The translations under genes and the position numbers were made by a program. Below are positions 1,336-12,320 of a DNA stretch of 34,876 nt, piece after piece. The notes under the pieces are model-generated. The model was not told the origin of the DNA. It did no database searches and was given only the letters and a program-made list of their open reading frames with translations. This DNA is from an uncultured Clostridia bacterium (GTDB lineage: Bacteria; Bacillota; Clostridia; Oscillospirales; Feifaniaceae): assembly GCA_904420075.1 (NCBI GenBank), contig CAJFTX010000080.1, forward strand, positions 1 through 34,876. Reading direction: 5' to 3'. Position 1 is the first letter of the stretch. Each line of letters begins with the position of its first letter.

Positions 1336-1707
1336 TTATTTGTCCTTCTGCATATTCGTGAGAAATTCGACCTTCTCCGCATCGCTCCAGAGCTTGTCGA
1401 GATTGTAAAATTCTCTGGCTTCCCTGTGGAAGATGTGCACGATCACCCCGTCGTAGTCGAGCAGAATCCAGTTGGTGTTTCCTCGTCCGCCCTCGACGTG
1501 GTGCGGCTCGATGCCGAGCTTTGTCATCTGCTCCTCCACCTCGTCCGCGAGCGCCGCCACCTGGGTACTCGAATTACCGCTCGCAATGACGAAGCACTCC
1601 GCAAGAGTGGTGAGCTCCACCACGTTCAAGAGCTGCACATTCTCCGCCTTTTTCGCGTCCAAAATCTCCGCAATCTTTTTGCCGAGGTCCATATTGGTAT
1701 ATTCCAT
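1336..1707 (-). CDS. rsfS: Ribosomal silencing factor RsfS (Iojap family)
   Basis: A 123-residue cytoplasmic protein of the RsfS/Iojap family, which binds ribosomal protein L14 on the 50S subunit and blocks subunit joining when nutrients run out. Family hallmarks are visible: the LTTLAECFVIASGNSSTQV segment, the HHVEG turn and the core WILLDYDGVIVHIFHREAREFY, followed by the usual LDKLW ending. Length is normal. The ATG at 1707 lies 10 nt after the preceding membrane protein gene, and the gene ends 15 nt before leuS. The order nadD-yqeK-(LytR-type protein)-rsfS-leuS is standard in Clostridia. Identity is secure from the motifs and the neighbourhood. Confidence 0.96.
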   Translation of the reverse strand: MEYTNMDLGKKIAEILDAKKAENVQLLNVVELTTLAECFVIASGNSSTQVAALADEVEEQMTKLGIEPHHVEGGRGNTNWILLDYDGVIVHIFHREAREFYNLDKLWSDAEKVEFLTNMQKDK

Positions 1708-1717
1708 ACTGTCTCCT

Positions 1718-2158
1718 TTATCCTTGATAGTCGGTTCCGATATAGATGATATAGTCGTAATTCTCTCCGGTGAGCCCCTCTACCGAGGCGTGGGGCAGCA
1801 GATTTTTCACATCCTCTGTCCGTCTCGCCCCGCCCGAGATGTAGATCTTGCTGCGTTCAAATGAAATTGCGAGCGGCACCGGCTCCACCTGGAGTGAAAG
1901 CCCTTCGAGCGCGCCGATCAGCCCCTGTATCCGCTCTCGCGGCACACAGTAGCAGAGCTTCACCACGCCCTCGCTCTGGACGGCGGGCTCCTCCTGTTCG
2001 ACGCTCTCCTCCGCAGGCGCGGCGGGCGGCACAGCCTCCCCCTGTCGCACCTCCTCCGGCAGAAAGCTCCAGAGGAGGAAGGACCCCAGCAGGACAAGCG
2101 CCAGCAAGACTGCGAGCAGTAAAATCGTCGCCTTTCTCTTCCGTCTGTCCTTAGTCAT
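1718..2158 (-). CDS. Membrane-anchored protein with LytR_C-like C-terminal domain
   Basis: 146 residues. The N-terminus is basic (MTKDRRKRK), followed by one membrane span at about residues 10-31, so the rest is probably outside the cell. Residues 35-62 form a Pro/Ala/Glu-rich linker. The C-terminal part (about 64-146) resembles the LytR_C domain (PF13399): a beta-strand start VVKLCYCV, a middle KIYISGG, and the family-like ending YDYIIYIGTDYQG (compare the usual ...vvLGkDy). In related Clostridia this slot between yqeK and rsfS usually holds an LCP (LytR-CpsA-Psr) protein carrying LytR_C at its end; here no LCP catalytic domain is present. It starts 18 nt after yqeK. The function is unknown, possibly cell-wall related. 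The domain call is by eye and moderate. Confidence 0.6.
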   Translation of the reverse strand: MTKDRRKRKATILLLAVLLALVLLGSFLLWSFLPEEVRQGEAVPPAAPAEESVEQEEPAVQSEGVVKLCYCVPRERIQGLIGALEGLSLQVEPVPLAISFERSKIYISGGARRTEDVKNLLPHASVEGLTGENYDYIIYIGTDYQG

Positions 2159-2176
2159 TGCTCCTCCTCCCCGCCG

Positions 2177-2749
2177 CTATTCGTCCCGGTGGAGCAAAAA
2201 ATAGTTGCGGGCCTTGACCGAACTTAAGTCGAGCAGGCTGTCCCGCTCGATGTGGACCGAGATGGTTCCGGTGAGCGCGGTCAGAATCGCGGCGTTCAGT
2301 CCGTCCCGCTTCAGCGCGGCCCGGATCTTCTGCACCCCGTAGTAGTTCCTGGTGGGCTCCACACAGTCCGCGATATAGATGATCTTCTCGAGAAGTCCCA
2401 TCCTCTCGCGCCCGGTCGTGTGATACCGCACGGCGTCCAGTATCTCAGGGTCGGTGATCCCGAGCTCCCGCTCCAGCACGGCTGCCCCTGTGACCGCATG
2501 CAGAATCTTCGGAATCGCCCGCTCGCTCTCGGATACTGTTATACCAAATTTTTCGCAGAGCTGCAACTGCTCCTTCGGCCCGCACTCCTTGGTGATATCG
2601 TGGAGCAGTCCCGCGAGCTCCGCCTTCTCCGGGTCCGCTCCGAAGCGCCGTGCAAGCCTGCCGGCCTCCTTCATCACCTCGATCGAGTGCGCAAACCGCT
2701 TCTCGCTGAGCCGCTCCCTCAGAAGCTCCATATATGCCGCCTTGTCCAT
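2177..2749 (-). CDS. yqeK: YqeK family HD-domain diadenosine tetraphosphatase
   Basis: 190-residue HD-superfamily hydrolase. The YqeK family cleaves Ap4A symmetrically to two ADP. The metal-binding HD set is complete: H21, the HD pair H50-D51, H84, H110 and D128 (in IIYIADCVEP). Two further family features are VRYHTTGRE and the EPTRNYYGV loop. It sits 11 nt downstream of nadD, the classic nadD-yqeK pair in Firmicutes, and 18 nt upstream of the LytR_C-like membrane protein. The ATG at 2749 has a GGAGACGAG-type ribosome site close by. Length is normal for the family and all metal ligands are intact, so an active enzyme is expected. Confidence 0.95.
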   Translation of the reverse strand: MDKAAYMELLRERLSEKRFAHSIEVMKEAGRLARRFGADPEKAELAGLLHDITKECGPKEQLQLCEKFGITVSESERAIPKILHAVTGAAVLERELGITDPEILDAVRYHTTGRERMGLLEKIIYIADCVEPTRNYYGVQKIRAALKRDGLNAAILTALTGTISVHIERDSLLDLSSVKARNYFLLHRDE

Positions 2750-2760
2750 CTCGTCTCCTC

Positions 2761-3351
2761 CTAACCTAGGTAGAGTCCTCGACTCTCAATGTATCGGAGC
2801 ACCGGCTCCGGGATCAGCTCCCCCACCGGCTCCCGCTTTCGCAGCCGCTCGCGCAGCTGGGTGCTCGAGAGCGGGAGCGCGGAGAGCTCCGCCCGCTCGA
2901 TGTCGCCGCCCGTCTCCGCCCGCAGCCGCGCAATCTCCGCATCGAGCGCCTCCTCCTCCCCCTCACGTGGGAAAACCCGCACCTTTGCGAGCCGCAAAAT
3001 CTCTTGGTAATCGCGCCACTGGCGGAAGGTGAGCAGCATATCCCCGCCGACAAACAGCATGAGCTCCCGCCCCGGCTCCGAAAGCTCCCGGAGCGTTTCC
3101 ACCGTGTAGCTCCGGCCGCCGCGGCGAACCTCGAGGTCCAGCACCTCTGCGAGCTCCCCGAAGGCGAGCTCCGCCATTCTGAGCCGGTCCTCCGCCGAAA
3201 CCGCCCCCGCGAGCTCCTTATGCGGCGGCAGCGCGCAGGGGACCACATAGAGCGCGTCGAGCGCATACCGCTCCCTCATAAACCGCAGCAGCCTCAGATG
3301 GGCGCTGTGCGGCGGGTTGAAGGTCCCGCCGAAGATGCCGACCCTGCTCAT
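2761..3351 (-). CDS. nadD: Nicotinate-nucleotide adenylyltransferase
   Basis: Joins nicotinate mononucleotide and ATP to form deamido-NAD in NAD synthesis. Using the ATG at 3351, the protein has 196 residues and opens with the nucleotidyltransferase signature GGTFNPPHSAH (residues 8-18, HxxH at 15-18). VGGDMLL follows near 101, and the second signature SSTQLR lies at 162-167. The reading frame stays open far upstream of 3351, but those residues do not look like NadD. The ATG overlaps the stop codon of yhbY as ATGA, which indicates translational coupling, so 3351 is the right start. Length is normal and it is followed 11 nt later by yqeK. Confidence 0.96.
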   Translation of the reverse strand: MSRVGIFGGTFNPPHSAHLRLLRFMRERYALDALYVVPCALPPHKELAGAVSAEDRLRMAELAFGELAEVLDLEVRRGGRSYTVETLRELSEPGRELMLFVGGDMLLTFRQWRDYQEILRLAKVRVFPREGEEEALDAEIARLRAETGGDIERAELSALPLSSTQLRERLRKREPVGELIPEPVLRYIESRGLYLG

Positions 3352-3641
3352 CGCGGCAGTTTGATCTGTTTGTTCTTCTTCGACTCGCGGTAGAGCACAA
3401 GCCGCGCCCCGATGCACTGCACCGGCTCCGCACCGCACCGCTCGGCGAGTATTCCCGCCGCCTCTCTGGGGGTGTACTCGCACGTCTCAAGCACCTTGAG
3501 CTTGATAAGCTCCCGCGCCTCGAGCGCATCCTCCACCTGGGCGACGAGATTGTCTGTAATTCCGCCCTTGCCAATCTGAAAAATGGTCTCCGCCGTATTT
3601 GCAAGGCCGCGCAGATAGGCCCTCTGTTTGCTCGTTATCAT
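3348..3641 (-). CDS. yhbY: YhbY family RNA-binding protein
   Basis: 97-residue protein of the CRS1-YhbY (CRM) family, small RNA-binding proteins associated with pre-50S ribosome assembly. It begins MITSKQRAYLRGLAN, contains the conserved glycine-rich loop IGKGGIT, and continues with the ALEARELIKLKVLETC helix-strand unit typical of the fold. I chose ATG at 3641 rather than the in-frame GTG nine bases earlier: AAGGAG lies 8 nt before the ATG but overlaps the GTG. The chosen start overlaps the rdgB stop as ATGA, and its own stop overlaps the nadD start as ATGA, so rdgB-yhbY-nadD look translationally coupled. Normal length for the family. Confidence 0.94.
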   Translation of the reverse strand: MITSKQRAYLRGLANTAETIFQIGKGGITDNLVAQVEDALEARELIKLKVLETCEYTPREAAGILAERCGAEPVQCIGARLVLYRESKKNKQIKLPR

Positions 3642-4243
3642 CCGTCCCACTCCTTGATCTTCTCAAAAAATTTGGTCATCGCCGCCGCCCGGTGGCTCAC
3701 CCGGTTCTTCTCGTCCGGATCGATCTCGCCGAAGCTCTTCTGAAACCTCGGGTCGAAAAAGACCGGGTCGTATCCGAAGCCGAGCGTCCCCTGCGGCGCG
3801 CGCAGGATACTCCCATGGCACTCGCCGCGCACCGCGAACTCCTCCCCCTCCGGGGTGCAGAACGCGAGCGCTGAGACAAAGTGCGCCCCGCGCTCCCCGT
3901 CCGGCACCTCAGCCATGTTCCGCAGCAGCAGCGCAATCCGGTCGGCGTCGGTGGCGTCCTCCCCCGCATACCGCGCGGAGTAGATGCCGGGCGCACCGTG
4001 CAGCGCGTCGACGCAGAGCCCCGAGTCGTCCGCGATGGCGGGAAGTCCCGTGGCTCGCGCCACCGCCCGCGCCTTGATAAGCGCATTCTCCTCGAAGGTT
4101 GCGCCGTCCTCAACGATCTCGCCCGCGAAGCCCGCCTCCCCCTGGGAGAGCACCTCGACTCCGAGCGGCGAGAGCAGATCCCGGATCTCCCGGAGCTTGC
4201 CCCGGTTCCCGGTGGCCGCCACCAGCTTCGTCAGTTTATTCAT
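3638..4243 (-). CDS. rdgB: dITP/XTP pyrophosphatase (non-canonical purine NTP hydrolase, RdgB/HAM1)
   Basis: 201-residue HAM1-family enzyme that hydrolyses ITP, dITP and XTP to the monophosphates and so keeps deaminated purines out of nucleic acids. Motifs seen: TGNRGK (11-16) for the phosphate site, ADDSGLCVDALHGAPG with the catalytic acidic residues, GFGYDPVFF, and the C-terminal KNRVSHRAAA. An open frame extends upstream to 4426, but that part is the out-of-frame shadow of ftsY; the ATG at 4243 gives the family start and overlaps the end of ftsY by 8 nt. Its stop overlaps yhbY. Normal length, with all key residues present. Confidence 0.96.
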   Translation of the reverse strand: MNKLTKLVAATGNRGKLREIRDLLSPLGVEVLSQGEAGFAGEIVEDGATFEENALIKARAVARATGLPAIADDSGLCVDALHGAPGIYSARYAGEDATDADRIALLLRNMAEVPDGERGAHFVSALAFCTPEGEEFAVRGECHGSILRAPQGTLGFGYDPVFFDPRFQKSFGEIDPDEKNRVSHRAAAMTKFFEKIKEWDG

Positions 4244-5162
4244 CGCTCTCACCCCCGTCAAAGAGGGCCGCCGCGAACTCCTCCGGCGCAAAGTCCTGCA
4301 GATCGTCCATCTGCTCGCCCACTCCCACGAATTTAACCGGCACCGCAAGCTCGTTTGTGATCGCGACGACAATGCCGCCCTTCGCGGTGCCGTCGAGCTT
4401 TGTGAGGATGATTCCTGTGAGCTCACAGCTCTCCCCGAAGTCGCGCGCCTGTTGGACGCCGTTCTGCCCGGTCGTCGCGTCGATTACAAGCAGCGTCTCC
4501 CGGTCCGCGTCGGGCAGCTCCCGGTCGATCACACGCGAAATTTTTGAGAGCTCGTTCATCAGGTTCTTCTTGTTGTGCAGCCGTCCGGCCGTGTCGCAGA
4601 TGATGACATCCGCCCCGCGGGACTTGCCCGCCCGCACCGTGTCGAATACGACGGCCGCGGGGTCCGCCCCCTCACCGTGCTTGACAAGCTCCACCCCGAC
4701 CCGGTCGGCCCAGATCTGGAGCTGGTCGATCGCCGCCGCGCGGAAGGTGTCCGCCGCGCCGAGCAGCACCTTTTTGCCCTCGGACTTGAATTTGGCCGCG
4801 AGCTTCGCGATCGAGGTGGTCTTGCCGACACCGTTGACCCCCACGACGAGGATGACCGAGGGCTTCGTCTCAAGCTTCAAGCGGTTGTCACAGGCTGAGA
4901 GCATCTCGGTGATAATTGTGCGCAGCTCGGCGCGCACCTCCTCCGCATCCTTGATCCTGCCCTCCTTCACCCGCTCGCGTAGCCGCTCGATGATCTCCTC
5001 CGAGGAGCGCACACCGAGGTCCGCCATGATGAGTGCATCCTCCAGCTCCTCGAAGAGCTCCTCGTCCACCTTCACAAAACTCTTGAGCACGTTGTCAACC
5101 CCGCCCATAATGGAGTCGCGGGTCTTGGAAAGTCCCTTTTTAATCTTATCAAAAAATCCCAT
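4236..5162 (-). CDS. ftsY: Signal recognition particle receptor FtsY
   Basis: 308-residue SRP GTPase that docks ribosome-SRP complexes at the cytoplasmic membrane. It has a short N-terminal amphipathic segment (MGFFDKIKKGLSKT) instead of the long acidic A domain of Proteobacteria, then the N helical bundle. The G domain follows with P-loop GVNGVGKTT (108-116), the SRP-specific DTFRAAAIDQL insertion, DTAGR (190-194) and TKLDG (254-258). It lies 22 nt downstream of smc, the usual Firmicutes neighbour, and overlaps rdgB by 8 nt. Length and motifs are normal for a Gram-positive FtsY. Confidence 0.97.
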   Translation of the reverse strand: MGFFDKIKKGLSKTRDSIMGGVDNVLKSFVKVDEELFEELEDALIMADLGVRSSEEIIERLRERVKEGRIKDAEEVRAELRTIITEMLSACDNRLKLETKPSVILVVGVNGVGKTTSIAKLAAKFKSEGKKVLLGAADTFRAAAIDQLQIWADRVGVELVKHGEGADPAAVVFDTVRAGKSRGADVIICDTAGRLHNKKNLMNELSKISRVIDRELPDADRETLLVIDATTGQNGVQQARDFGESCELTGIILTKLDGTAKGGIVVAITNELAVPVKFVGVGEQMDDLQDFAPEEFAAALFDGGESDE

Positions 5163-5184
5163 AGTCTCTCCTTATTCTTTGGAA

Positions 5185-8100
5185 TCACACCTTGATCCCG
5201 AGCTGTTTTTCGATCTCGCTGACCTTGATGGTGAGCAGCTTTGAGACGCCCTTCTCCTGCATCGTCACACCGTAGAGGACGTCCGCCTCCTCCATCGTGC
5301 CGCGCCGGTGAGTCACGACGATGAACTGCGTCTCCGTGCAGTACTTGCGCAGGTACTGGGCAAACCGGGTGACGTTCACGTCGTCGAGCGCCGCCTCGAT
5401 CTCGTCCATGATGCAAAACGGCACCGGTTTGACCGCCAGAATCGCAAAGTAGAGCGCAATCGCTACGAAAGTCTGCTCCCCGCCGGAGAGCAGCTGCAAA
5501 TTTTTGATGAGCTTTCCGGGGGGATTTACCTTGATCTCGATGCCCGAGGTCAGCACATCCGAGGGGTCGGTGAGCTCCAGTTTCGCCGAGCCGCCGCCGA
5601 ACAGCTCCCGGAACACGAGGTTAAACTTCTCGTTAATCACAGTAAACTGTTCCCCGAAAATACTTCTCATCATCTCGGTCAAATCCTCGATGATCTTCAA
5701 AAGCTCGGTCTTGCTCTGCTCGAGATCGGCAATCTGCGCGGTGTAGAATTCATACCGCTCTCTGACCTCTTTGTATTCGGCGATCGCGTCGATGTTCACG
5801 TTGCCGAGCGCCTTCATCGCGGCGCGCAGCTCCTGGATGCGCCGCTTCGCTCCCGCGAGGTCGGCAAGCTCGGTGCGCTGGGCCATCGCCGTCGTGATGG
5901 TGAGCTCATACTCGTCCCAGAGTTTCGCGACCACCCCGTCGTACTCCGCCTCGACCGCGCCCTTCTTCTGCGCGAGGCGCATCTGCTCGGCGAGCAGCCG
6001 CTCGCGTCTCTCCTGCAGCTCCGCCGCCTCAGTCCGCAGCGCGGTCACGCTGCGCTCGATCTCGTCCCGCTCGCGCCCCCGCGCGCGGATGGCCTCCTGT
6101 CCGGCCTCCACTCGGTCGGCGAGCTGCGCGATCTCCGCCTCAAGCGCGGCGATCTCCGCGGAGATGCGCTCCGCCTCGGCGCGCTTTTCGGCCGCCGCCC
6201 GCTCACGGTCGGCGCACTCGCTTCTCAGCTCCTCGCGCTGCCGCGCGATCTCCTCAAGGCTCCGCTGGGCCGCATCCGCCCGGGCTCTGTCCTCCGCCCC
6301 GGCGAGTTTCAGCTCGGAGAGCTCCGAGAGCGTTCGCTCCCGCGCAGCCGCCGCGTCCTCGCTCTCCTGCTCGGCCGCGCGGATCTCCGCCTCAAGTGCG
6401 GCGATCTCCGCCTCGAGCGCCTCCTGCGCCCGGCTGAGCGTCTCCCGCTCGGCCCGCTCCCGCGCACTGCGGTCGAGAAGCGTCTCCCGCTCTCTGCGGA
6501 GCGCAGCCGCAGTCTCCTGCTCCGCGCGGAGCAGACCGTCCACCTGCTCTCTCTTATAGGAGAGCTCGCGCAGCCGGTCGGTCGCTGCCGTCTCCTCCGC
6601 CTTCGCCCCGGCGAGCGCGGCGCGCACCGCCGCCGTCTCCTCCGCGGCGCGGTCGAGCGTCTCCTGCGCCCGGCTGAGCGCCGCTGTGAGCGTTTCAATC
6701 TCCGCCGCCAGCGCATCGATCTGATTGCGGCGGGTCAGCACCCCTGCGCCCCGCTGCTGCGAGCCGCCGGTGAGCGAACCGCCCGCGTTCACCACCTGGC
6801 CGTCGAGCGAGACCACCTTGAACCGGTAGCCGTACTTCTTCGCAATTGCCACTGCCCGGTCGAGCGTCTCCGCGACGGCGCACCGGCCGCAGACGCTCGC
6901 CACCACCTCGGAGAACCGCTCCTCGCAGCGCAGGAGCTCGCTCGCGAGGCCGACATAGCCCGGCTCGTCCGAAAGTCCCCGCTCCGAGAGTGTTCTGCCC
7001 CGGATCGAACTCACCGGCAGGAAGGTCGCTCTGCCCGCCCGCTCGTTCTTGAGCAGCCGGATCGCCCGCTTGGCGTCCTCCTCACTCTCGGTCACGATGT
7101 GTGAGAGTGCGGCGCCGCACGCGGTCTCCACCGCCACGGCGTACTCGTCCTCCACCCGGATGAGGCCGGAGAGCGGGCCGCAGATCCCCGCAAGCGTACC
7201 GTGCGCCGCCTCCTTCATCACCCGCTTGACCGAGTGGGGCGAGCCCTCCATCTGCCGCTCCATATCGGAGAGCACCCGGCGGCGCTGTAATTTCTCCCCG
7301 CGCTCGGCTGTGAGCTTCTGCACCTCCGCCGTGAGCGTCTGCTGCTTCTCCGCCCGGGCGGCGAGCTTCCGCTCGTAGCCCGCGATCACATTCTGCGCCG
7401 AGGAGAGCGTCTCCTCCAATGCCGCGCGCTCCGTCTTGCAAAGCTCCGCCTCCTCTGCAAGCTCCGTCCGCCGCGTCTCCCGGCGGGAGAGCTCTCCGCC
7501 GATGGCGCGCTCCCGCTCGTCCGCCGCCCGCAGCGACTCCGCAAGCGCGGTGAGTTTCAGCTTGCCGTCGGTGAGCGCCGCACTCCTCTCAAAGAGAGTG
7601 CCCCTCCGTGCCGCGAGCTGTTCCCGCAGCTCGCCGCGTGCGCCGTCCGCCGTCTCCGCCTCCCGGCGGAGCGCCTCAAGCCGCCGCTCCCGTTCCTCCG
7701 CGAGCCGGAGCGCCTCCTCCCGCTCCCCGCGGAGCGCCTCCTCCCGAGCCGCAAGCTCCCGCTCGCGGCGCTCGCTCTCCGCCCCGTCCGCAAGCTCCTC
7801 CGCCCGGGCGCGGGCGTGCTGCGCGTTGTTTTTCGCCACTGCGAGCTCGCGGAGCCGCTCCCCGCTCTGCTCCTCGATCTCTTTGATCTCCCGCCGGAGC
7901 TCCTCGATCTCGACGTTCTTCTCCCGCGTGCGGTCAAACACCCCGTCGATCTCCCGCTCCTTCCGCTCGGCCTCACCTCGCAGCGTCTCGAGCTCCCACT
8001 CAATCGCGGCGCTGTCGTCCGCGATCTTCGAGAGCACGTCCCCCGTCCGCTCCACGCTGTCAAGCCAGACGTTGATCTCGAGCTGCTTGCGCTCCTCGCG

Positions 8101-9039: not shown

Positions 9040-9696
9040 GTGGCATCCCCGAACAAAAGAAAAAAGCGCCGCTCCCGTCGCGGTCTTCTGCTACTGGCCC
9101 TCGCGGGGATCATCGCACTGACCGTGCTGCTCGCCTGTTTTGCGCGGATCGGTCTCTCCCCCGGCTATACGGCGCTGCGCACCCCGACCAATGAAATTTA
9201 CGGCGTGCCGCTCTATGAGCAGCTCATCCCCGAGGGGGACAAAGGACGTCCCGGACAGAAGCGCCGGATACGCTATATTGTGATTCACGAGACGGGCAAC
9301 TTCTCCCCCAGCGCCACCGCCCGCTCCCATGCGAATTTTCTCGCCTCCGGCGGCGACGGGCAGAGCACCTCCTGGCACTACACGGTGGACGAAAACGAGA
9401 TCTATCAGCAGCTCCCCGACAATGAAATCGCCTTCCACGCGGGCGACGGCCGTAAAGCGGGCGGCGGCAACGAGGGCGGCATCGGCATTGAGATCTGCGT
9501 CAACGACGGCGCGGACTACGAGCGGGCGCTCGACAACGCCGCAAAGCTCGCAGGTTACCTCTGCAAGTGCTACGGGCTCGGCGTGGACGACATCAAACAG
9601 CACGCCGACTTCATGGACAAAAATTGCCCTCAGCGACTGCGCGACAGCGGGCGCTGGGAGGAGTTCAAATCCCGCGCGGCGGGCTATATGAAATAG
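9040..9696 (+). CDS. Membrane-anchored N-acetylmuramoyl-L-alanine amidase (Amidase_2/PGRP fold)
   Basis: 218-residue zinc amidase that cuts the bond between N-acetylmuramic acid and L-alanine in peptidoglycan. The N-terminus is very basic (KRKKRRSRR), then a hydrophobic segment at 15-32 ending LLAC; this is either a simple membrane anchor or a lipoprotein signal with C33 as the lipid site. The catalytic domain spans about 70-215. Zinc ligands are H83 (VIHETG), H188 (KQHADF) and C196 (KNCPQRL), with Y114 (HYTVDE) and H133 (FHAGDG) near the active site. GTG start at 9040, with AAGGAG 7 nt upstream. It is the only plus-strand protein gene in the window, placed between smc and a metal ATPase operon, and is followed by a hairpin. 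Likely role: wall remodelling or recycling. Confidence 0.88.
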   Translation: MASPNKRKKRRSRRGLLLLALAGIIALTVLLACFARIGLSPGYTALRTPTNEIYGVPLYEQLIPEGDKGRPGQKRRIRYIVIHETGNFSPSATARSHANFLASGGDGQSTSWHYTVDENEIYQQLPDNEIAFHAGDGRKAGGGNEGGIGIEICVNDGADYERALDNAAKLAGYLCKCYGLGVDDIKQHADFMDKNCPQRLRDSGRWEEFKSRAAGYMK

Positions 9697-9871: not shown

Positions 9872-11944
9872 TCAGCTCAGATAGAGCCGCATGCTGCCAA
9901 GCCCCACCCCCATGGTGGAAAGATTGTGCAGCAGCGCAGCCGTGGTCGGCGGGAGTATCCCCGCCAGTCCGAGCAGCAGAAGCGCCGTATTAAATTGCAG
10001 AATAAACCGGTAGTTTCTTCCGATGCGGTCGAGCATCGCCCGGCTCAACCGCCGTAGGGTAACAAGTTCCCTCAGATCAGCCGAGAGCAGAGTGATATCC
10101 GCCACCTCCCGCGCCAGATCGGAGGCGTCCTTCAAAGAGACCGAGACGTCCGCCGCAGCGAGCGCGGGCGAATCGTTGATTCCGTCGCCCACCATGATAA
10201 CCCGGCGCCCCTCCGCCTTGAGCGACTCGATTACGCGCGCCTTTTCCTCCGGCAGAACCTGAGCGCGGTATTCTGTGATGCCGATCTGTCCGCAGGCCGC
10301 AGCGGCCGCGTTCTCGTGGTCGCCTGTCAGCAGGAGTACCCGCTCAATTCCGAGTCCCCGGAGCGCAGACACCGTCTCCGCCGCCTCCGGCCGCGGCGGG
10401 TCGCTGATACACAGAGCGCCCGCAAGCCGGCCTCCGATCGCGAGATAGAGGGCGGACGCCCCCGCCGTCTCCCGCTCCAGCCGGGCGCGCTGCTCCGGCC
10501 GGAGTTCCGTCTTTTCATCCTCAAATATGAAGTGATAGCTACCGATCAGTGCGCGCGCTCCGTGCAGCAAAGTGGAGACGCCGTGCGCCACCACATATTC
10601 GACCTCGGCGTGCTCCTCCCTGTGAGAGAGTCCGCGTTCGCTTGCACAGTTCACCACTGCGCGCGCCATACTGTGCGGGAAGTGCTCCTCAATGCAGGCG
10701 GAGATACGCAGCACCTCCTCTTCGCTGTACCCGTCAAACGCAAGCACTCGGGTCACCTTCGGACAGGCGGCCGTCAACGTCCCCGTCTTGTCAAAAACGA
10801 TCGTATCCGCCTGCGCAAACGCCTCGAGATACTTACCTCCCTTGACGACAATCTTCCGCAGCGACGCCTCCCGCATCGCGGAGATCACCGCAACCGGAGT
10901 GGAGAGTTTGATCGCGCAGGAGTAGTCCACCATCAGCACAGAGAGCGCCTTTATCAGATTTCTGGTAAAAAGCCCCACTGCGAGCGCCCCGAAGAAGCTG
11001 AACGGCACAATAGCGTCGGCGAGCCGTTCGGCGCGGCTCTGTACTCCCGCCTTGAGCGTCTCCGCCCCCTCGATCAGTTCCACGATCTGACTGATGCGAC
11101 TGTCCGAACTGAGAGCGGTCACCTCCACCACAAGGGAACCCTCCTCCACAGTGGTACCCGCGTAGACCGCACAGCCCGGCCGCTTCTCCGCGCCCAGAGG
11201 CTCTCCGGTGAGCGCCGCCTCGTTCACCACAGCCTCCCCCTCGCGCACCAGCCCGTCCACCGGGATGAGCGTCCCCGCGCGCACACGGATGCGCTGGGAG
11301 CACTGTAGCTCCGAGAGGGGTGCAGGCCGCTCCGCGCCGCTCTCCTCCACCAGCCAGACCTGGTTCACATGGATTGCGAGACTCCGTGCCAGCTCATTTT
11401 TCGTGCGCGCGCGGGTATATTCCTCCAGCAATTCCGACAGCGAGAGCAGAAACATGATCGACCCCGCCGTCCCGGAGGAGCCCTGGAGCATCGCCGCCCC
11501 AATCGACGCGGCGTCCAGCACCTCCACCCCCAATCTACCTGAGAGCAAACTCGAAATCCCGGTCCGCCAGTAGCCGCACGCGCGGCAGAAGGTGCGCACA
11601 AGGCGCACCGGAGCCGGGGCCAGCAGCCGGAAGAGCGCGCGGCGTATCAGAAGCCGCAGCAGCTTGCCGCGAAATTCCACATCCAGCGGTTTTTTCTCCG
11701 GGACAGGCACCGCCGGAAGTTCCTCCCTCCGCAGCGCCGAGATCACCTCAAGCAGCCGTTCCCGCGCCCCGGGCCGGTAACATACGAGGATACTCCCATT
11801 TGACGCGTGGGTGACAGCTTCCTCCACGCCATCCTGTGAAAAGAGCAGGGAGGCGATCGCCTCTCCCTGCTCCTTGGAAAACGCGTACTGTCCACACCGG
11901 ACCCGCAGCCGTCCCGGCGTGTCATAGACAATCTGATAGCGCAT
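9872..11944 (-). CDS. Heavy-metal P1B-type ATPase, CtpC-like with SCA in place of CPC
   Basis: 690-residue ATP-driven metal exporter of the inner membrane. Residues 1-60 look like a metal-binding-domain fold without CxxC (HMA_2-like). The A domain has TGE (246-248). The catalytic DKTGT has phosphoryl Asp385, TGD is at 540-542 and GDGIND at 586-591. The metal-site motif in the transmembrane helix, usually CPC, reads YSCAIKLSTP (341-350). The P1B 'HP' motif reads HFPHS (421-425), so Ser follows the His. The C-terminus HNLSTMGVGLGSMR is typical of the branch with mycobacterial CtpC, which is linked to manganese/iron; that comparison is from memory and the substrate is inferred. The gene starts 12 nt after a small membrane-protein gene and shares its promoter. 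A terminator follows. Confidence 0.9.
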   Translation of the reverse strand: MRYQIVYDTPGRLRVRCGQYAFSKEQGEAIASLLFSQDGVEEAVTHASNGSILVCYRPGARERLLEVISALRREELPAVPVPEKKPLDVEFRGKLLRLLIRRALFRLLAPAPVRLVRTFCRACGYWRTGISSLLSGRLGVEVLDAASIGAAMLQGSSGTAGSIMFLLSLSELLEEYTRARTKNELARSLAIHVNQVWLVEESGAERPAPLSELQCSQRIRVRAGTLIPVDGLVREGEAVVNEAALTGEPLGAEKRPGCAVYAGTTVEEGSLVVEVTALSSDSRISQIVELIEGAETLKAGVQSRAERLADAIVPFSFFGALAVGLFTRNLIKALSVLMVDYSCAIKLSTPVAVISAMREASLRKIVVKGGKYLEAFAQADTIVFDKTGTLTAACPKVTRVLAFDGYSEEEVLRISACIEEHFPHSMARAVVNCASERGLSHREEHAEVEYVVAHGVSTLLHGARALIGSYHFIFEDEKTELRPEQRARLERETAGASALYLAIGGRLAGALCISDPPRPEAAETVSALRGLGIERVLLLTGDHENAAAAACGQIGITEYRAQVLPEEKARVIESLKAEGRRVIMVGDGINDSPALAAADVSVSLKDASDLAREVADITLLSADLRELVTLRRLSRAMLDRIGRNYRFILQFNTALLLLGLAGILPPTTAALLHNLSTMGVGLGSMRLYLS

Positions 11945-11956
11945 CTTCGTCCCCTC

Positions 11957-12196
11957 TTACTCCGCGTCCTTCTCCGCCTGGAGCTTTGCGTCGTAGCAGA
12001 GGTCCTGCGCGTCCTCCCGCATGCTCTGGAAGGTGGCCTGCGCGTCCTTCTGCAGCTGCATTCCCTTCGCAAGACCGTTCACACAGAGCTTCCTCGCCCG
12101 GTCGCTCTTGAGGGCCTTCACGCCGAGTGTGGCCGCCGCCATTCCGCCGAGAAAAAACAGAAACTTTTCATTTTTCAGGCAGTCAAAACAGTTCAT
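11957..12196 (-). CDS. Small single-span membrane protein partnered with the metal ATPase (DUF6110/DUF1490-like)
   Basis: 79 residues. It begins with a CxxC pair (C3, C6), then a glycine/alanine-rich hydrophobic segment (about 12-29), then a charged amphipathic helix with A/K/Q/E periodicity. Further cysteines are C38 and C67. It is encoded directly before the P1B ATPase (12 nt) under the same promoter. The layout and the residue pattern after the membrane span recall DUF1490 (PacL) proteins, which sit before CtpC, CtpG and CtpV in mycobacteria and act as membrane metal chaperones/scaffolds. Unlike PacL, it has no Asp/His-rich tail. The DUF6110 name is recalled from ATPase neighbourhoods in Firmicutes. 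AAAGGA lies 9 nt before the ATG. Function inferred from context. Confidence 0.7.
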   Translation of the reverse strand: MNCFDCLKNEKFLFFLGGMAAATLGVKALKSDRARKLCVNGLAKGMQLQKDAQATFQSMREDAQDLCYDAKLQAEKDAE

Positions 12197-12223: not shown

Positions 12224-12285
12224 CCGGCGTTAGCTAACGCTAACACCGGACGATAAAACAAGCGGGTTAGCACCCGCTATCTAAC
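12224..12285. promoter_or_regulatory. Palindrome-rich candidate operator of the metal ATPase operon
   Basis: Just downstream of the promoter lie repeated TTAG/CTAA half-sites. The inverted repeat CCGGCGTTAGC-TAAC-GCTAACACCGG (12224-12249) contains GTTAGC/GCTAAC, and GCGGGT-TAGC-ACCCGC is at 12262-12277. GTTAG (12266-12270) and CTAAC (12281-12285) flank the latter. The half-sites resemble DtxR/IdeR-family metal-repressor boxes (core GTTAGsCTAAC), but the spacing differs. As RNA they would form two hairpins, so a leader-based mechanism is also possible. Confidence 0.5.
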
Positions 12286-12291
12286 AGTTTT

Positions 12292-12320
12292 ACTTTACTC
12301 TTTCCCGCGCCATTTGTCAA
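12292..12320 (-). promoter_or_regulatory. Promoter of the small membrane protein-P1B ATPase operon
   Basis: Minus-strand TTGACA (12315-12320), 17-nt spacer, TAAAGT (12292-12297). The predicted start near 12285 places the TTAG/CTAA palindromes within the first 60 transcribed bases, where a bound repressor would block transcription. It lies directly after the terminator of the preceding operon. Confidence 0.65.

Follow-up and report, generated by a model that had tools for sequence, protein, structure and literature searches.

A DUF6110-P1B6 ATPase gene pair of probable FezA-FezB type in an uncultured Clostridia bacterium

The gene pair and its products

The DNA analyzed here, referred to as the window, comprises 34,876 nt of contig CAJFTX010000080.1 from the 1.9-Mb genome of an uncultured, gut-type anaerobic Clostridia bacterium (Feifaniaceae). 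On its minus strand lie an ORF for a 79-residue, FezA-like (PacL-like) single-span protein (12196-11957) and, 12 nt further on, an ORF for a 690-residue P-type ATPase of the P1B6 (FezB-type) family (11944-9872). This order and spacing had been described in an earlier sequence-only reading and are borne out by the ORF coordinates. A homologous small gene sits immediately 5′ of the ATPase in 51 of the 54 non-redundant P1B6 loci examined, and chance pairing is therefore excluded. The flanks hold ordinary housekeeping genes: plsX, rnc and a radical-SAM gene (about 13377-12361) on one side, and an Amidase_2 gene (9040-9696, plus strand) and smc on the other. The pair thus does lie between rnc and smc as first proposed, except that the radical-SAM and Amidase_2 genes intervene. 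Because it has its own promoter-like sequence (12320-12292, minus strand) and a terminator-like hairpin with a T-rich tail 3′ of the ATPase gene (9865-9833, minus strand), it looks like a separate unit and not an extension of the rnc or smc operon.

The small protein is a divergent homologue of the DUF6110 family (PF19605). Residues 14-76 match the family at E 6e-5 and 23.5 bits, just below the curated cut-off of 26, and no other Pfam family, DUF1490 (PF07371) included, is matched at an E limit of 10. A divergent DUF6110 subfamily unites it with proteins from loci L062, L113, L115, L110 and L117 and from Anaerotignum, the last of which scores 27 against DUF6110; the closest by identity are those of L113 (62%), L062 (56%), L115 (53%) and L110 (52%). 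Among solved structures no relatives were found (best E 0.08).

Hydrophobicity peaks in the 19 residues that begin at residue 12, in agreement with the hydrophobic segment 12-29 noted earlier, and the transmembrane segment is placed at residues 12-30 (12107..12163, minus strand), with a conserved FxGG..G.K glycine pattern. An AlphaFold model of modest confidence (pLDDT 67) contains helices at residues 10-28 and 33-78; the second is long and amphipathic, again as anticipated. Across 22 aligned DUF6110 proteins, conservation is found in two elements, FxGG...G.K.L.S in or just past the transmembrane helix and an E..A.DI..EAK amphipathic helix, and the window protein carries the transmembrane glycines, the basic segment and the ED[IL]..EAK helix. 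Since the N-terminus preceding the membrane span is near-neutral and the KALKSDRARK segment following it is net positive, an N-out/C-in topology is likely by the positive-inside rule. The C-terminus reads KLQAEKDAE and has no PacL-type DLHDHDH metal motif.

Cysteines occur at residues 3, 6, 38 and 67. The first two form a genuine CxxC, in which the sequence-only reading had seen a metal site relocated to the N-terminus. This proposal does not hold. An N-terminal CxxC is found in only 2 of 51 homologues, the window protein and that of Anaerotignum lactatifermentans (L126), at different alignment columns, and is absent from L062, which encodes the nearest relative of the window ATPase; it is therefore not a conserved metal site, and the positive-inside rule would put it on the non-cytoplasmic side. 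C67, within D[IL]CYEAK, is better conserved in the divergent subfamily.

Cysteine-rich C-terminal tails, such as ECDCDCGCE and CSDDCECGCGCD, are a separate trait of several DUF6110 proteins (L070:2839-3126, L077:4157-4459, L112:38-355, L067:4090-4392 and L071:3333-3656). A script count assigns at least two cysteines in the C-terminal tail to 10 of 51 DUF6110 proteins, one of which (L072) is a wrong-start artefact. These tails parallel the C-terminal metal tail of PacL, in a family that had been described without a metal motif.

The ATPase has all of its catalytic motifs intact, including the phosphorylation motif DKTGT (10778..10792, minus strand). Its TM4 metal-site motif is SCA (residues 342-344; 10913..10921, minus strand), invariant in a 16-row ATPase alignment, and an HNLST sequence near the C-terminus, in TM6 (residues 673-677; 9914..9928, minus strand), supplies the HN motif common to CtpC-like pumps. 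A C-terminal HN motif has been described for these pumps (PMC9374683). As the initial reading had stated, CPC is absent throughout the 690 residues and no CxxC occurs in residues 1-80. DUF6110-paired ATPases have SCA or a close variant (single cases of CCA, SCG and SCV), nearly always with HN, whereas DUF1490-paired ATPases of Mycobacteriaceae have CPC with HN in 11 of 11 cases. SCA is thus a mark of the P1B6 family and, judged by its motifs, the window ATPase is a canonical P1B6 pump, in which SCA and the C-terminal HN are the hallmark and no oddity.

The N-terminal 72 residues (11729..11944, minus strand) are modeled by AlphaFold as a ferredoxin-like fold with high confidence (pLDDT 96.9). 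Foldseek matches include the HMA domains of ATP7B, ZiaA and CopZ, none individually significant, along with other ferredoxin-like folds, and the corresponding ATPase presumed to be from Clostridioides difficile matches HMA_2 at 5e-6. On this modeling the most plausible reading is a degenerate HMA domain, in which PGRLRVR stands in place of the CxxC loop.

Relation to PacL-CtpC and FezA-FezB

A paper of 2022 (PMC9374683) had already described both the likeness of DUF6110 to PacL/DUF1490 and its association with P1B6 ATPases, and one of 2026 (PMC13043812) returned to the subject; the pair can no longer be called a little-described variant. With the DUF6110 proteins termed "PacL-like" in the first of these papers, the window protein shares the family match over residues 14-76, the single span followed by an amphipathic helix and the P1B6 partner, and differs in its sub-threshold score and membership of the divergent subfamily.

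Profile comparisons support a deeper relationship. An HMM built from five DUF6110 proteins recovers DUF1490 proteins at E 1e-5, and PF07371 is matched by 7 of the 22 DUF6110 proteins in the alignment, at 3.4e-5 in the best case, so that the two families look distantly homologous. In phylogenetic trees the P1B6 and DUF1490-paired ATPases form a joint group to which most other P1B pumps do not belong (support 100/99), and within it two sister clades; the window ATPase lies firmly in the P1B6 clade. Orthology to CtpC is ruled out by this placement and by the SCA motif. The sequence-only reading, which had presented the small protein as a PacL counterpart and expected its ATPase in the CtpC branch, therefore stands in part: the distant homology of the families and the sister relationship of the pumps are upheld, as is the profile match to DUF6110, while the window protein itself yields no match to DUF1490, the ATPase falls outside the CtpC branch and other parts of the interpretation fail.

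With PacL1-CtpC of Mycobacterium tuberculosis (DUF1490 and a P1B6-like ATPase), the window pair has in common the architecture, the gene order, homologous small proteins and the HN motif. It departs from that system in having SCA where the CtpC-like pumps of the sister clade have CPC, in lacking the C-terminal His/Asp metal motif of PacL, and in a predicted low-iron response in place of resistance to excess zinc. Near the base of the CtpC and P1B6 branches lies an Anaerosolibacter ATPase with CPC and HN (L148:4529-7208), preceded by a small transmembrane coiled-coil protein that matches neither DUF6110 nor DUF1490 and is possibly another type of partner.

The closest characterized pair is found in C. 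difficile. According to PMC12574912, ferrosomes of this species store iron and need the membrane protein FezA and the transporter FezB, both Fur-repressed; fezAB corresponds to CD630_05910-05920 (PMC11651100). An iron study (PMC6311696) gives the annotation "ATPase" for CD630_05910 and "Hypothetical protein" for CD630_05920. At low iron, their log2 changes are 2.41 and 2.04 in RNA and 6.77 and 5.21 in protein, respectively, and a fur mutant shows similar changes. DUF6110 occurs in exactly 6 of 71 genomes of the Clostridioides mangenotii family. One of these (G682; 4,109,692 bp) encodes at 714 kb, on the minus strand of a 28% GC region, a DUF6110 protein (PF19605, E 1.6e-22) followed by a P1B6 ATPase. 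This genome is presumed to be C. difficile and its pair fezAB, as gene order and map position fit CD630_05920/05910; on that basis, FezA most probably belongs to the DUF6110 family.

The window pair matches this presumed fezAB in its two genes and their order, with 41% identity between the ATPases over their full length and 34% between the small proteins over 65 residues, and the two ATPases fall in one clade (support 99/98). The window protein is the shorter, at 79 against 131 residues, and is without the long C-terminal tail. Further differences lie in control, which is predicted to run through a DtxR-type operator at the window pair and through Fur at fezAB; in low-iron expression, shown for C. 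difficile and predicted here; and in the ferrosomes themselves, known for C. difficile and predicted here.

Operator, predicted regulon and neighboring iron genes

The promoter of the pair is sigma-70-like, TTGACA-N17-TAAAGT, with its -35 box at 12315..12320 and its -10 box at 12292..12297 (minus strand); TTGACAAATGG is also present 5′ of the L062 pair. Just downstream of the -10 box lies an imperfectly spaced 20-bp repeat, GTTAG-N10-CTAAC (12266..12285), and beyond it a 16-bp operator-like site, GTTAG-N6-CTAAC (GTTAGCTAACGCTAAC; 12229..12244). In L062, a GTTAG-N6-CTAAC site directly follows a -10-like sequence. A first operator pattern, GCGTTAGCTAACGC with three mismatches, proved uninformative (29 sites versus 106 for the reversed control).

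The core GTTAGCTAAC occurs once in the genome of the window. A pattern search of the same genome gives seven exact GTTAG-N6-CTAAC sites versus none for the reversed control pattern. Of the other six, two precede a DUF3793-flavodoxin operon, flavodoxin being a classic protein of iron starvation. Another falls in the interval separating a TetR gene from an ABC exporter pair, and a fourth is close to the beginning of a pyruvate formate-lyase-like gene. Homologues of DUF3793, flavodoxin and TetR adjoin the P1B6 pair in 5, 5 and 6 of 55 loci, respectively, versus none of 70 control loci. The two remaining sites are at the promoter of a 1612-residue LRR_5/SLH surface protein (L264:1076-1158; G000:C40), which may possibly be iron-regulated.

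Across genomes, the motif is concentrated at P1B6 loci, with 36 sites in 497 kb versus one in 650 kb of other P1B loci (p=1.8e-12), and, when the controls are restricted to clostridia, 36 in 459 kb versus one in 182 kb (p=6.6e-5). The pattern was chosen after five sites had been seen in two genomes, a choice on which the test on loci of other genomes depends little. Among the proteins of the genome there is one clear short DtxR-family regulator, of 124 residues (G000:C25; PF01325 and PF02742), which is the candidate protein for binding GTTAG-N6-CTAAC. The motif was found neither at the presumed C. difficile locus, where Fur acts, nor upstream of three feoB genes of the window's own genome; the regulon is thus not a simple copy.

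Iron genes also adjoin related pairs. In Candidatus Ruminococcus intestinipullorum (L130), a DtxR-family gene accompanies the series feoA, feoB, a FeoB-associated gene, a 26-residue ORF, DUF6110 and P1B6. The order is feoA-feoA-DUF6110-P1B6 in L115 and DUF6110-P1B6-DtxR-family in L113; feoA lies upstream of the pair in L069 and L121, and DtxR-family genes adjoin it in L123 and L126. Taken together, feo or DtxR genes occur within 5 kb of 9 of 55 P1B6 loci versus 1 of 70 other P1B loci (p=0.003), as counted with queries taken from the genome of the window; an earlier run, with queries drawn from the P1B6 loci themselves, was biased and was repeated for this reason. Counts of feoA and of feoB, taken individually, are not significant in these 55 P1B6 and 70 control loci.

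The 26-residue ORF is a single-span micro-ORF (MKxHrFWAw...TGYkhK) found directly 5′ of DUF6110 in 13 of 54 P1B6 loci (including L129:4558-4638, L130:3273-3353, L074:2551-2634 and L078:4074-4154) and absent from the window. Its product aligns with the beginning of Pfam DUF6219 (E 2e-5) and is a candidate third component.

P1B6 units also occur outside the Clostridia. On plasmid p3 of Azospirillum brasilense (L270), a P1B6 ATPase with SCA and HN has small single-span neighbors and adjoins an iron ABC transporter; this is probably a plasmid-borne proteobacterial fez operon. Its six genes (1686-5725; HMA2, HMA, two hypotheticals, YtxH and the ATPase) contrast with the two-gene unit of the window in their extra HMA-like proteins and YtxH. 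The Deinococcus peraridilitoris plasmid pDEIPE02 carries a "DUF6110 family protein" gene followed by a P1B6 ATPase gene, with transposase genes upstream (L269:2491-5121). Contigs assigned to Methanobrevibacter (L127) and Methanovirga (L128) hold P1B6 ATPases nested in the clostridial subfamily of the window, a placement that suggests transfer from clostridia to methanogens, although an error of contig binning might also account for it.

Predicted function and wider meaning

The pair is probably a FezA-FezB-type unit, induced by iron starvation, in which an Fe(II) pump works under a FezA-like scaffold, most likely for storage of iron in ferrosomes. When iron is plentiful, the short DtxR-family repressor would occupy the promoter at GTTAG-N6-CTAAC, and iron starvation would lift the repression. 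The small protein would then insert N-out/C-in and pack through its glycine-patterned transmembrane helix, with its amphipathic helix lying on the cytoplasmic face, and would cluster and stabilize the ATPase. The pump in turn would remove Fe(II) from the cytosol, its most likely destination being membrane-bound ferrosomes, and iron acquired once starvation ends would thereby be stored. Each part of this scheme has its own footing. Iron as the substrate is a prediction that is well supported indirectly, P1B6 specificity not being readable from sequence; repression by iron is predicted from the operator and regulon; and organelle formation would be an extrapolation from C. difficile.

The metal efflux role first assigned to the pair now appears unlikely. 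On that account the small protein would cluster the pump at the plasma membrane as PacL does for CtpC, and the platform would export toxic zinc, cadmium or excess iron, as the homology of DUF6110 to DUF1490, the sister ATPase clades and the published PacL analogy (PMC9374683, PMC13043812) might lead one to expect. However, the ATPase stands outside the CtpC clade and has no CPC, and the small protein lacks the C-terminal His/Asp metal motif. Moreover, the operator also occurs at a flavodoxin operon and has links to feo and DtxR genes, which implies expression under iron starvation, the reverse of what detoxification would require. The closest characterized pair is FezA-FezB.

A rather unlikely but nearer alternative keeps iron (or manganese) as the substrate and dispenses with the organelle: a FezB-like pump in the plasma membrane could re-balance cytosolic Fe(II) after uptake by Feo. 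Operon linkage with feoA and feoB is compatible with such an exporter, and ferrosomes are not known for every P1B6 locus; yet the sole experimentally studied clostridial pair makes ferrosomes (PMC12574912), and low-iron induction suits storage better than export. Co-regulation with iron-starvation genes could also be accommodated by an importer, the pump then running in reverse, or by a regulatory subunit for Feo. The catalytic motifs of the ATPase are all intact, though, and those P1B ATPases that have been characterized pump metal outward from the cytosol, which makes this reading very improbable. Storage by a FezA-FezB-type unit is the better fit than detoxification because the pump motifs are intact and low-iron induction is predicted.

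A broader proposal is more tentative and could about as easily prove wrong. FezA-FezB ferrosomes and PacL-CtpC effluxosomes may be two offshoots of a single ancient system based on small glycine-patterned membrane proteins that cluster P1B6-type pumps, giving rise to zinc and cadmium export patches in Actinobacteria and to iron-storage organelles in anaerobes, with the clostridial iron branch placed under a short DtxR repressor acting at GTTAG-N6-CTAAC. A literature search, which did not cover the primary ferrosome papers, found no paper containing both "ferrosome" and "effluxosome" and no relevant paper linking ferrosomes with PacL, DUF1490 or DUF6110; a prior mention elsewhere is possible. 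The window pair is a divergent addition to a known kind of DUF6110-P1B6 unit; the less expected parts are the operator with its regulon and the meeting of two literatures.

A gene pair that resembles a zinc/cadmium resistance unit is thus reassigned to iron storage, at the strength given above, and the ferrosome-type pair is extended to further gut clostridia. The concrete operator and its candidate regulator predict when such pairs are made. Mutations of transmembrane glycines reportedly break PacL clustering; since the scaffolds of ferrosomes and effluxosomes are suggested to be homologous, the same mutations may be applicable to FezA-type proteins.
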